From Vulcanimicrobiota bacterium (GTDB lineage: Bacteria; Vulcanimicrobiota; Vulcanimicrobiia; Vulcanimicrobiales; Vulcanimicrobiaceae): 33,017 bases of DNA. Under the pieces are notes generated by a model that was not told where the DNA came from, did not search any database, and saw only the letters and a list, made by a program, of their open reading frames with translations. This document shows positions 4,836-7,878 of this stretch, one piece after another; within the stretch, counting starts at the first letter, position 1, and every line of letters begins with the position of its first letter. Location of the stretch: contig JAFAXS010000139.1 in the NCBI GenBank assembly GCA_019240755.1, forward strand, positions 1 to 33,017, given 5' to 3'. The position numbers and the translations under genes are program-made.

Positions 4836-6347
4836 TTAGCGCCGCTTCGCCGCGCTCTTTTTCTTTTTGACGGCTTTCTTCGCGGACCCGGCCGCGCGCC
4901 GCTTCGGCTTGGCCGGACGCCGTGCGGCAGGCTTCTTGCCAGTGCCCTTCTTGGCTTTGGCGGCGACGGCTTTTCGCGCCGTCTTCTTGACGCCTCGGCG
5001 CGCCGGCCGCTGCTTCGCGCGAACGCTGCGGGAACGTGGCGCCGAGCTCTTGCGGCTTTTTTTCGTTCGGGCCGCGGGTGCTTTTTTGCGCTTGGGCGAG
5101 CTGCTCGTCGTCTTCTTCTTTGCGGGCTTCGCCGGGCGAGCCGCTTTGGAGACCCGCGCGGCTTTCGCCTTGGTCGCCGAGGACGCCGATTCCGCAGTCC
5201 GTTTCGACGTACTCGCGGTTGCCGACGCTGCGGCACGCTTCCTCGGGCCGGCTCCTCGACCGGTCCGCGACAGCTCCGCGCGTCCTTCGGCCTCCTCGGG
5301 AAGGCCTAGTTCGGCGCGACCGTACCCGGTGATGCTGCTGCCGGGAGCGACCGGTTGACGCCGCGCCTTCGCATGCGCCTCGAGATGCTCGCGGGTCGCG
5401 CGTAATGCGACTCGTGCGAGCCGGCCGCCCACCGGAAAGACGATCTCGTTAATCTTCGCGTCATCGAGCAGCTTCAGCGCCTGATCGAAGCCGCCGCCTT
5501 GGTCTTTTGGGCTGTGCGCATCCGAGCCGATCGCGATCCCCACGCCCCGCGCTTTGGCTTTGCGGATCAGGCGCGCGTTCGCGTCGAGATATTTTTTGCG
5601 GCGATCGTCGGGCTGTCCGCGGTACAAAAGGCGAGTGTTGACCTCCACGGCCAAACTGCGTCGATGGGCCACGTCGAGCATCCGGTCTTCGTACTCTTCG
5701 AGCTTCTTTTGCGCCGGCCAACGTCCGAGCGCGGCGGGGACATAAAAATGGCCGATGACGTGCGCGGGGAGCTTCTCGAGATCGTCGAGCAGCTTCGCCA
5801 TGTAGAGCTCCCAAAGTTTGTCGGGTCCGATGACGTCGTGCAGCTGGGCGAACTCCGCATTGTCGAACGCCCACGGCCAATCGGTCCCTTTCTCGGGGTG
5901 CGTGATCGAAACGAAATGCACCGATCGGATGATTCCGTCGGGACGCATCGCGTCAACGATGTTCTGCGCATCCGGCCTCGCCCGGGGGTCGTTGTCCATC
6001 TCGGCGCCGATCGAAAAGCGCATCCCTCGGCGCAACCCCTCTGAGACGAGGGCAGCGTGCGCGATGTCCACGCCGGCCGTCTCTGCGGCGCCGAGCAGAT
6101 CGCCGGCTTGGGCTAAGTTGAGGGCCCTGCGGACCGTATTGACTGCACCCGGATCTTCGAAGGTCAGATAGTTCGAGTGATCCGCGACCATCAAGAACCG
6201 CGGGAAGCCACGACGGCACGCATGGTAGAACCAAAGGAAAAGCATGCGCGCCGAATACGCAATCGGCCGCTCCTCGCTATACGGGCGGTGTTCCCCTTTG
6301 GCATGACCATGAACGTCGGGAATCGCCGCAGTGCGGGGGTCGCTCAT
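4836..6347 (-). CDS. PHP-domain phosphoesterase with a histone-H1-like basic C-terminal tail
   Basis: A 503-residue protein. Residues about 1-310 are a PHP-family metal phosphoesterase: DVHGH at 11-15, ADHS at 55-58, a conserved Glu at about 116, IGHF at about 198-201 and SDAH at 275-278 fit the metal-binding motifs. Known PHP enzymes include histidinol phosphatases, nucleoside-bisphosphate phosphatases and the nuclease modules of some DNA polymerases, so the substrate is open. Residues about 365-503 are a low-complexity Lys/Ala/Arg/Pro/Ser tail with repeated KKA, AAK and SPKRKK-type motifs, resembling histone H1 or Hc1-like proteins and probably binding nucleic acid. It follows the alkyltransferase gene by 19 bases, which makes a DNA- or nucleotide-related role plausible but unproven. 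The ATG at 6345-6347 is used. Confidence 0.8.
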   Translation of the reverse strand: MSDPRTAAIPDVHGHAKGEHRPYSEERPIAYSARMLFLWFYHACRRGFPRFLMVADHSNYLTFEDPGAVNTVRRALNLAQAGDLLGAAETAGVDIAHAALVSEGLRRGMRFSIGAEMDNDPRARPDAQNIVDAMRPDGIIRSVHFVSITHPEKGTDWPWAFDNAEFAQLHDVIGPDKLWELYMAKLLDDLEKLPAHVIGHFYVPAALGRWPAQKKLEEYEDRMLDVAHRRSLAVEVNTRLLYRGQPDDRRKKYLDANARLIRKAKARGVGIAIGSDAHSPKDQGGGFDQALKLLDDAKINEIVFPVGGRLARVALRATREHLEAHAKARRQPVAPGSSITGYGRAELGLPEEAEGRAELSRTGRGAGPRKRAAASATASTSKRTAESASSATKAKAARVSKAARPAKPAKKKTTSSSPKRKKAPAARTKKSRKSSAPRSRSVRAKQRPARRGVKKTARKAVAAKAKKGTGKKPAARRPAKPKRRAAGSAKKAVKKKKSAAKRR

Positions 6348-6366: not shown

Positions 6367-7098
6367 CTAGCGGCGGTAGCCCTCCATTTTCAGAAGACGC
6401 GCTTTCATTTCGCGGCCGTAAAAGTAATCGTGAAGATCGCCCGACGAATCGACGACTCGGTGGCACGGAAAGAGCAACGGCAAAGGATTGCGCGCCATCA
6501 CGCGCCCGACGGCGCGTGCCGCGCGTGGCTTACCGATTTGCATCGCCACCCACGCGTAGGAGCGCACTTCGCCGGGCGGTATCCGTGCCGCCGCGCGCAG
6601 CACGGCCTGTTCGAACGGCGTTAGGTCGCTGATATCCACGATGGCGTCGTCCACTTGCCACGTCGTGAAGAAACGGTCGAGAGCTTTGCGCAGCCACCCG
6701 GGCGCTTCGCCCACGACGACCGGGCGATGGAGCCTGCGCGCCGCGCGGGTCACCACCTCTTCGAGCGGCTCTCCGGTATCCAGGCTCAGATACGCCATTC
6801 TGTTCTGCTTGACGCCGACGAAGAGCGTGCCGAGCGGCGTTGTTATGGACGCCAGGACGATCGGCTGCTGGATCTTGCCGCGCAGCGCGGCGATGTGTGT
6901 AACGACCTTTTTCGCCAGGTCGCACGACGGTTCGGGAGGCGGCAAACTGGAGAGACAATACGCGACGCCTTCGTACTGCTCGTACATGTCCTGGCACGAG
7001 GGGCACGCCCGCAGATGAACGTGGACCGTATCCTTGAGCGTGGCTTGGCATTCGCCTCGCAGCTCGTCCCAGAGCGCTTCGACCTCACGACAACGCAT
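6367..7098 (-). CDS. Anti-sigma zinc-finger domain fused to O6-alkylguanine-DNA alkyltransferase
   Basis: A 243-residue two-domain protein. Residues 1-45 match a zinc-binding anti-sigma (ZAS) domain: Cys3, then His28-x3-Cys32-x2-Cys35 (HLRACPSC). Residues about 70-243 form a methylated-DNA-protein cysteine methyltransferase. PFEQAVLRAAARIPPGEV leads into the helix-turn-helix, RAVG supplies the Arg finger, and NPLP and PCHRV carry the acceptor Cys212, with a closing Glu in KMEG. All key repair residues are present. An ATG at 7096-7098 is preferred over an upstream TTG at 7131 because GGAAGGAG stands nine bases before it; the domain also begins there as in other ZAS proteins. It overlaps the sigma factor gene by 14 bases, as sigma/anti-sigma pairs often do. 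The fusion suggests an alkylation-sensing anti-sigma factor; this role is inference. Confidence 0.85.
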   Translation of the reverse strand: MRCREVEALWDELRGECQATLKDTVHVHLRACPSCQDMYEQYEGVAYCLSSLPPPEPSCDLAKKVVTHIAALRGKIQQPIVLASITTPLGTLFVGVKQNRMAYLSLDTGEPLEEVVTRAARRLHRPVVVGEAPGWLRKALDRFFTTWQVDDAIVDISDLTPFEQAVLRAAARIPPGEVRSYAWVAMQIGKPRAARAVGRVMARNPLPLLFPCHRVVDSSGDLHDYFYGREMKARLLKMEGYRR

Positions 7099-7771
7099 GT
7101 ACTCCAACTCCTTCCGGAACGAATCGCCCAATCTGGGGACCCAGAATACGCCGCAGAATTCGAACGGCGCGGTGCACGTGGGATTTGACCGTGCCGATCG
7201 GTTGATTCAGAATTTCGGCAATTTCCGGGTGGCTGCGGCCCTCGATAAATCGAAGGGTCGCCGCGGCGCGAAGATGCATCGGGAGCTGCAAGAGTGCCCG
7301 CTCGACCAGCGCGATCTCGGTGTTCTGTTCGACGATCTTCTCGGGCTGGGGCGGCCCCTCGTGCGACTCGCGTAAGATCGCGTCGGGGTCGGCCAGAGCA
7401 TCCAGCGCGACGTTCGTGGGGCGCTTGCTCCGCAGGCGGTTGCGCGTAACGTTCAGCGTGATCGTGTAGAGCCAGGGCTGCAGCCGAAGGTCGGCTCGCT
7501 GCTCCGGCGACATCTTGCCGAGCGCGCGGTATGCGCGGACGAACGCGTCCTGAACGATCTCCTCAGCGTCTTCCCGATTTCCCGTCATGCGCAAAGCAAA
7601 GCCGTAGAGGCGGCGCTGATAGTCATCGACGATCGCCTCGAAACTCTCGACGGTGGGTGCGGAGCCGTCCCGCGGCAAGTTCACCGCGGTGCGTCCCGAC
7701 GTTGTCGCTGATGGCACGAATACTCCCGTACTCCAGTGGTGCGAGCGCGCCCATATAGAGCCCCGGACCAC
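7085..7771 (-). CDS. ECF-family RNA polymerase sigma factor
   Basis: A sigma-70 protein of the extracytoplasmic-function type, which directs RNA polymerase to a small regulon. Region 2 is clear: the YQRRLYGFALRMTGNREDAE stretch followed by IVQDAFVRAYRAL, and LQPWLYTITLNVTRNRLR. Region 4 ends with RFIEGRSHPEIAEILNQPIG and then GTVKSHVHRAVRILRR, the -35-recognition helix-turn-helix. The first 40 or so residues are not conserved sigma sequence, so the annotated GTG at 7771 may be too far upstream; a GTG at 7684 is an alternative. The stop lies inside the 5' end of the anti-sigma/alkyltransferase gene, its probable regulator. The target promoter cannot be defined from this window alone. Confidence 0.9.
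   Translation of the reverse strand: MVRGSIWARSHHWSTGVFVPSATTSGRTAVNLPRDGSAPTVESFEAIVDDYQRRLYGFALRMTGNREDAEEIVQDAFVRAYRALGKMSPEQRADLRLQPWLYTITLNVTRNRLRSKRPTNVALDALADPDAILRESHEGPPQPEKIVEQNTEIALVERALLQLPMHLRAAATLRFIEGRSHPEIAEILNQPIGTVKSHVHRAVRILRRILGPQIGRFVPEGVGVHALS
7108..7115 (-). promoter_or_regulatory. Ribosome binding site deciding the start of the anti-sigma/alkyltransferase gene
   Basis: On the minus strand, GGAAGGAG is followed by nine bases and the ATG at 7098. It lies inside the end of the sigma factor coding region, so the two genes are probably translationally coupled. The more upstream TTG frame opening at 7131 has no comparable site. Confidence 0.7.
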
Positions 7772-7878
7772 CCTTGCTAGCCCCGAGGTTTCACGCTCGT
7801 CCTTAAAAACTCCTCAGACGCTCCGGGCGAGCGGTACGTCGGGGCAGGGGTTTCGAGCAGCGTTCCTAAAGCCTCGCT

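Follow-up and report, generated by a model that had tools for sequence, protein, structure and literature searches.

Introduction

O6-alkylguanine-DNA alkyltransferases (AGTs) are consumed by the reaction they carry out: each molecule acts only once and irreversibly, and after alkylation an AGT is altered in conformation and loses stability. Zinc anti-sigma (ZAS) domains hold ECF sigma factors between regions 2 and 4, and in RsrA and RshA the ZAS domain senses through its own cysteines. In Ada, the same alkyl-transfer chemistry is used for feedback (PMC2753364, PMC6818145). A review, citing Casas-Pastor et al., places 6-O-methylguanine DNA methyltransferases in the conserved neighbourhood of group ECF122 and counts ECF122 among the groups without a cognate anti-sigma factor (PMC8999054); by that description, a linkage between ECF sigma factors and AGTs was already known.

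Here we describe a locus of a soil bacterium in which an ECF sigma gene adjoins a gene encoding a ZAS anti-sigma domain fused to an AGT. The locus lies in a stretch of 33,017 nucleotides that was analysed as a whole (the window), and its features are as follows.

6367..7098, minus strand: fusion gene encoding a ZAS anti-sigma domain and an O6-alkylguanine-DNA alkyltransferase, 243 aa, identified by Pfam and homologues
6370..6861, minus strand: alkyltransferase domain, residues 80-243, with the acceptor Cys212 of PCHRV at 6463-6465
6874..7098, minus strand: anti-sigma domain, residues 1-75, with four predicted helices and zinc ligands C3, H28, C32 and C35
7085..7717, minus strand: ECF sigma factor, likely start GTG 7717, 210 aa; the ORF is open to GTG 7771
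7766..7793, minus strand: predicted autoregulatory ECF-type promoter, TGAAACCTCGGGGCTAGCAAGGGTGGTC, found at the corresponding position in most of the order

Comparison with described systems

With the soluble anti-sigma factors ChrR, RsrA and RshA and the membrane proteins RsiW and RslA, the fusion shares a Cys...HxxxCxxC four-helix domain adjoining an ECF sigma gene, and with ChrR it also shares a C-terminal sensor domain, which in ChrR is a cupin. It differs from the soluble ZAS anti-sigmas in that its sensor is a DNA-repair enzyme, and in that the presumed signal is DNA alkylation rather than singlet oxygen or thiol oxidation.

The likeness to Ada of E. coli is proposed here to be one of a suicide alkyltransferase that would sense its own alkylation and induce its own synthesis. 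Moreover, acidobacterial and actinobacterial versions of the module carry Ada's N-terminal zinc methyl-acceptor domain (Ada_Zn_binding, here Ada_Zn). The proposed output, however, is an ECF sigma factor with its anti-sigma domain, whereas that of Ada is AraC-type DNA binding, and the domain order is ZAS-AGT(-Ada_Zn). The window version has neither Ada_Zn nor a helix-turn-helix (HTH), and the acidobacterial proteins have Ada_Zn and no HTH; judged by domain content, the fusion is Ada-like in logic and is not a member of Ada.

As regards ECF122, the window sigma has the group's conserved neighbouring AGT, and the window module is possibly ECF122-related, while the loci from Actinobacteriota are probable members of that group. 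The difference from ECF122 as listed is that here the methyltransferase itself bears an anti-sigma domain. Among the open-licence papers searched, no description was found of an AGT-anti-sigma fusion, nor of the Ada_Zn version beside an ECF sigma gene, nor of the shared promoter.

The fusion protein and its two domains

The fusion ORF runs from ATG 7098 to its stop at 6367 on the minus strand, and the sigma gene ends at 7085, in agreement with the 14-bp overlap of the two genes that had been read from the sequence by the earlier note. That note had also placed a ZAS motif in the first 45 residues. The motif itself is upheld by profile matches and invariant ligands, but the domain extends further, to about 75 residues. 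The Pfam model zf-HC2 matches residues 6-36 of the fusion with an E-value of 0.0018 and 18.8 bits, short of the gathering score of 22.2. Since this match falls below threshold, the zinc domain was checked in three further ways. First, a whole-fusion profile of 33 sequences matched RsiW, for which a structure has been solved, at an E-value of 6e-4, and a profile of the anti-sigma domain (the first 79 residues), for which the fusions of Acidobacteriota and the phylum's ordinary anti-sigmas were also included, matched the solved structures of RsiW (2e-8), RslA (1e-4) and RsrA (0.005). Second, profile-profile comparison with anti-sigmas of the phylum gave a probability of 97% over residues 1-71. 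Third, in the two acidobacterial homologues scanned, zf-HC2 scores above its gathering threshold. On the evidence of these profiles, the sub-threshold match on the fusion is a true ZAS anti-sigma domain.

The predicted model of the zinc domain consists of four helices over about 75 residues, and the best Foldseek match to this domain alone is RsiW, at a weak E-value of 0.58. The upstream Cys and the HxxxCxxC motif lie within this four-helix domain, and the ligands C3, H28, C32 and C35 are invariant in 84 of 84 homologues, as is W10 in the 84 fusion sequences. Beyond the zinc site, most homologues have a further Cys pair, C48-x2-C51, of which the window protein has C48 and, at the second position, S51 (residues 48-68, positions 6893-6957, minus strand). 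Moreover, C59 is present in 54 of the 84, and H68 of the linker is invariant. It is possible that C48, C51, C59 and H68 form an extra metal or redox site.

The remainder of the protein is an AGT. DNA_binding_1 matches residues 161-240 (E 6.6e-29, Pfam), the fold of the modelled fusion corresponds to those of M. tuberculosis OGT and the C-terminal domain of Ada, and a Foldseek search with the whole model returned AGTs only. The motifs RAVG, NPLP and PCHRV, from which an intact alkyltransferase had been proposed, proved to be invariant or nearly so among the 84 homologues. Residues Y181, W183, N204, P205, C212, H213 and E239 are shared by all 84 sequences and R195 by 83 of them, so that the PCHR acceptor Cys, the Cys-His-Glu triad, the Asn hinge, the Arg finger and the Tyr of the AGT family are all present. 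The invariance of the zinc-site and AGT residues indicates that both domains are under selection, the alkyl acceptor included. By sequence, the protein is filed both as a ZAS anti-sigma factor and as an AGT; sigma binding, sigma inhibition and alkyl transfer are predicted activities.

One part of the active site is unusual. In place of the GYxGG motif of ordinary AGTs, the active-site loop of the fusion reads LHxYxYG, with a conserved His and Tyr, and in alignment H223 and Y227 correspond to human G156 and G160. Given this departure from the usual AGTs, the substrate range or rate of the enzyme may differ.

The sigma factor and its promoter

The sigma gene product has Sigma70 regions 2 and 4 only (PF04542 and PF08281 in Pfam; TIGR02937), as is characteristic of ECF (group 4) sigma factors. 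Its start had been listed at 7771, a position that falls within the predicted promoter's -10 element. Promoter position and homologues together make GTG 7717 the likely start. In most of the order, the sigma gene begins at a conserved ATG (MSALAPL...). An ATG also follows the promoter in the window, at 7752-7754 on the minus strand, and there, as in L006, L017-L019 and L095, it is out of frame with sigma, an arrangement that recurs in separate lineages. In these loci sigma probably starts at a later codon, which in the window is GTG 7717.

In all three phyla in which the module was found, the operon begins with an ECF-type promoter of about TGAAAC-N16-GTGKTY. Allowing up to two mismatches, TGAAAC-N16-GTGGTC or a close variant precedes sigma in 58 of the 82 Eremiobacterota loci, in nearly all of them at the same distance. 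In most Eremiobacterota loci about 12 bases separate the promoter from the conserved sigma ATG, a spacing that points to a leaderless or nearly leaderless message. In Acidobacteriota, CGAAC-N16-GTGT occurs before sigma in 12 of 12 loci (shuffles, at most 3), and in one actinobacterial group GAAAC-N17-TGTT does so in 16 of 18 (shuffles, at most 4).

Each of nine genomes of the genus carries the strict form of the promoter exactly once, at the sigma-fusion operon, and the reversed control gave zero matches; the strict actinobacterial pattern likewise occurs once per genome in nine of 12 genomes, always at the sigma operon. A search for a wider regulon with a relaxed promoter pattern did no better than the reversed control, and since no regulon was found beyond the operon, a broad alkylation response is not supported. 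These motif counts strongly suggest that sigma autoregulates its own operon and has a very small regulon.

Conservation within the order and neighbouring genes

A full-length fusion with 45-86% identity is encoded in 93 of the 103 genomes of the order, which come from two families (f1 and f2) of the window's class, Candidatus Eremiobacterota. In five others the fusion is present as fragments, mostly at contig ends, and the five that lack a full match are genomes of 61-88% completeness. With full-length fusions in 93 genomes and in acidobacterial relatives, an origin of the fusion by frameshift or chimera, including the refuting case named in the earlier note, that homologues would have the two domains as separate genes with a frameshift here, is ruled out. 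In the third family of the class and in the rest of the phylum, only free AGTs were found and the fusion was not.

The question of whether an ECF sigma gene always accompanies the fusion can be answered affirmatively, as each of the 83 further loci examined has one directly upstream, in most cases overlapping by the same 14 bp. A tandem or displaced sigma gene seemed to be present in four loci (L017-L019 and L095), with an apparent gap of about 650-670 bp; the alignments had overrun a stop, and the true overlap is again 14 bp. One genome (G038) contains two copies of the module, L016 and L095, the second cut by a contig end, reflecting either a duplication or a binning error. Elsewhere in the phylum, sigma orthologues are only 30-39% identical, and several of the neighbours read beside them are ordinary membrane anti-sigmas.

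The overall reading of the earlier note, in which a true ZAS domain is fused to an intact AGT and paired with an ECF sigma factor, has held order-wide and in Acidobacteriota. Its further suggestion that the neighbouring PHP gene takes part in the response finds no support: synteny of the PHP gene with the sigma-fusion pair is kept across the order, but in most genera a pyroglutamyl-peptidase gene separates it from the fusion, and the genes there run fusion, pyroglutamyl peptidase and PHP, with an EF-G-like GTPase next. The intervening gene had been considered as a candidate alkylation-repair gene and was rejected on its identification as a pyroglutamyl peptidase. None of these order-wide neighbours is a repair gene, and this counts against an alkylation-sensor model. 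The PHP-family phosphoesterase itself (4836-6347, minus strand) possesses a long Lys/Ala/Pro-rich, histone-like tail.

Other alkylation-repair genes do occur in the window genome. One encodes a free Ogt (L001), and another an AraC-AGT, after which comes a 2OG-Fe(II) oxygenase-like ORF (L002). An alkyltransferase-like protein with PAHRV instead of PCHRV is also encoded (L004, 1468-1974, minus strand). The sigma-fusion pair is thus not the genome's only alkylation system.

Related modules in other phyla

A scan of 84,980 species genomes yielded 78 loci, all but three of which appear to be the Eremiobacterota module. Two of the three exceptions are full-length matches in Acidobacteriota (L183 and L184), where an ECF sigma gene shares 11 bp with the gene for a protein of 295-298 aa that combines ZAS and AGT with a C-terminal Ada_Zn, the last scoring above the gathering threshold in the two acidobacterial proteins scanned. 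Among 396 acidobacterial genomes, 12 full-length ZAS-AGT-Ada_Zn proteins were found, each adjoining an ECF sigma gene, together with eight AGT-Ada_Zn proteins that have a short N-terminus and whose genes overlap or abut a sigma gene. Among 396 actinobacterial genomes, 27 loci (L217-L243) combine an ECF sigma gene with a short-N-terminus AGT-Ada_Zn, usually with a 4-bp overlap. Profile alignment of these actinobacterial proteins with the fusion begins at about residue 50, in the region of the fourth anti-sigma helix, and the short N-terminal stretch may, as no more than a suggestion, be what is left of an anti-sigma domain. The actinobacterial and some of the acidobacterial sigma partners have no zinc motif, which implies either that a short N-terminal stretch suffices or that the partner is not an anti-sigma factor there. 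What is constant across the phyla is sigma and AGT, and the usual addition is Ada_Zn, the domain with which Ada itself senses phosphotriesters.

Searching plasmids with the fusion gave no full-length match and led to operons of Tsukamurella and Nonomuraea. The Tsukamurella plasmid operon (L097, 1896-4854) consists of ogt, sigma-70, AGT, 2OG-Fe(II) oxygenase and alkB genes, nearly all joined by short overlaps, and no zinc anti-sigma motif was found in it.

In the AGT tree, a single supported clade (SH-aLRT 95), separate from Ogt and Ada, unites the ECF-linked AGTs of the three phyla. It also takes in four AGTs without a sigma partner, and it excludes four short forms from Acidobacteriota and the AGT of the Tsukamurella operon. 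The window sigma joins the actinobacterial sigmas weakly in the sigma tree (81), a placement compatible with a possible single origin of the sigma-AGT module. Three free acidobacterial AGTs (L204, L208 and L210), for which neither an anti-sigma domain nor a sigma neighbour was found, group with the ZAS-AGT-Ada_Zn clade and are possibly descendants that left the sigma system.

Proposed mechanism and alternatives

The fusion probably acts as an anti-sigma factor in the cytoplasm and uses a working suicide repair enzyme as its sensor, with alkylation freeing sigma and sigma restocking the enzyme. In the unreacted protein, the N-terminal four-helix zinc domain would keep the co-translated ECF sigma factor inactive. 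Cys212 would then accept an alkyl group from O6-alkylguanine in an irreversible, single-turnover reaction, upon which the AGT domain, like other alkylated AGTs, would shift in conformation or be destabilised and release sigma. The freed sigma would transcribe its own operon from TGAAAC-N16-GTGGTC, producing more sigma and fresh AGT/anti-sigma, and the fresh, unalkylated fusion would recapture sigma and turn the loop off. We infer sigma binding, alkylation as the trigger, release and the direction of the switch from the architecture described above. Because the molecule consumed would also be the inhibitor, the module would amount to a stock-control circuit for a consumable enzyme. We put at somewhat better than even the chance of the broader proposal, namely that the repair enzyme is itself the anti-sigma factor, such that one lesion repaired equals one inhibitor consumed and one sigma freed, and that this constitutes an Ada-independent, sigma-factor adaptive response in at least three phyla. 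With one inhibitor lost per lesion, the demand for repair would be read out stoichiometrically as transcription.

Other explanations are conceivable. Soluble anti-sigma ZAS domains are commonly redox sensors (PMC8999054), and the module could be a redox or zinc switch in which the ZAS cysteines sense oxidative or electrophile stress and the AGT is no more than a useful product, whose fusion lets its level act back on sigma. The extra Cys pair by the zinc domain would suit such a switch, although its incompleteness in the window protein would not, and across phyla the ZAS motif is dispensable whereas the AGT is kept and the domain added, Ada_Zn, is an alkylation sensor. A constant AGT, a variable ZAS and an added Ada_Zn favour alkylation sensing, and we regard the redox explanation as unlikely. 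It is also conceivable that binding of the AGT to alkylated or damaged DNA, and not alkyl transfer, pulls the anti-sigma off sigma or brings sigma near lesions, as AGTs bind DNA via this same domain and conservation extends to the Arg finger R195 and to Y181. A protein that sensed by binding alone could, however, do without its acceptor, as alkyltransferase-like proteins do (including the PAHRV protein of this very genome), and the invariance of Cys212 makes this possibility highly doubtful.

Finally, the two domains could be tethered constitutively, fused for co-regulation only, with sigma obeying another signal and the state of the AGT having no effect. The moderate variability of linker residues 46-78 is counted in favour of such a tether, but H68 within the linker is invariant, and three phyla keep sigma and AGT in overlapping genes despite differing N-terminal parts and the repeated presence of Ada_Zn; this explanation we consider very improbable.

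Significance

If the proposed alkylation-sensing mechanism is true, the module would represent a second, unrelated answer to the problem solved by Ada, that of restoring the supply of a repair enzyme when every repair destroys a molecule of it, and would provide an example of an anti-sigma factor that reads DNA damage directly by its own chemistry. Moreover, it would offer a function and a partner for ECF122-like sigma factors, which the review lists as without an anti-sigma factor. The module is compact, with two genes and one promoter, and it occurs in phyla in which inducible alkylation repair has been little studied.
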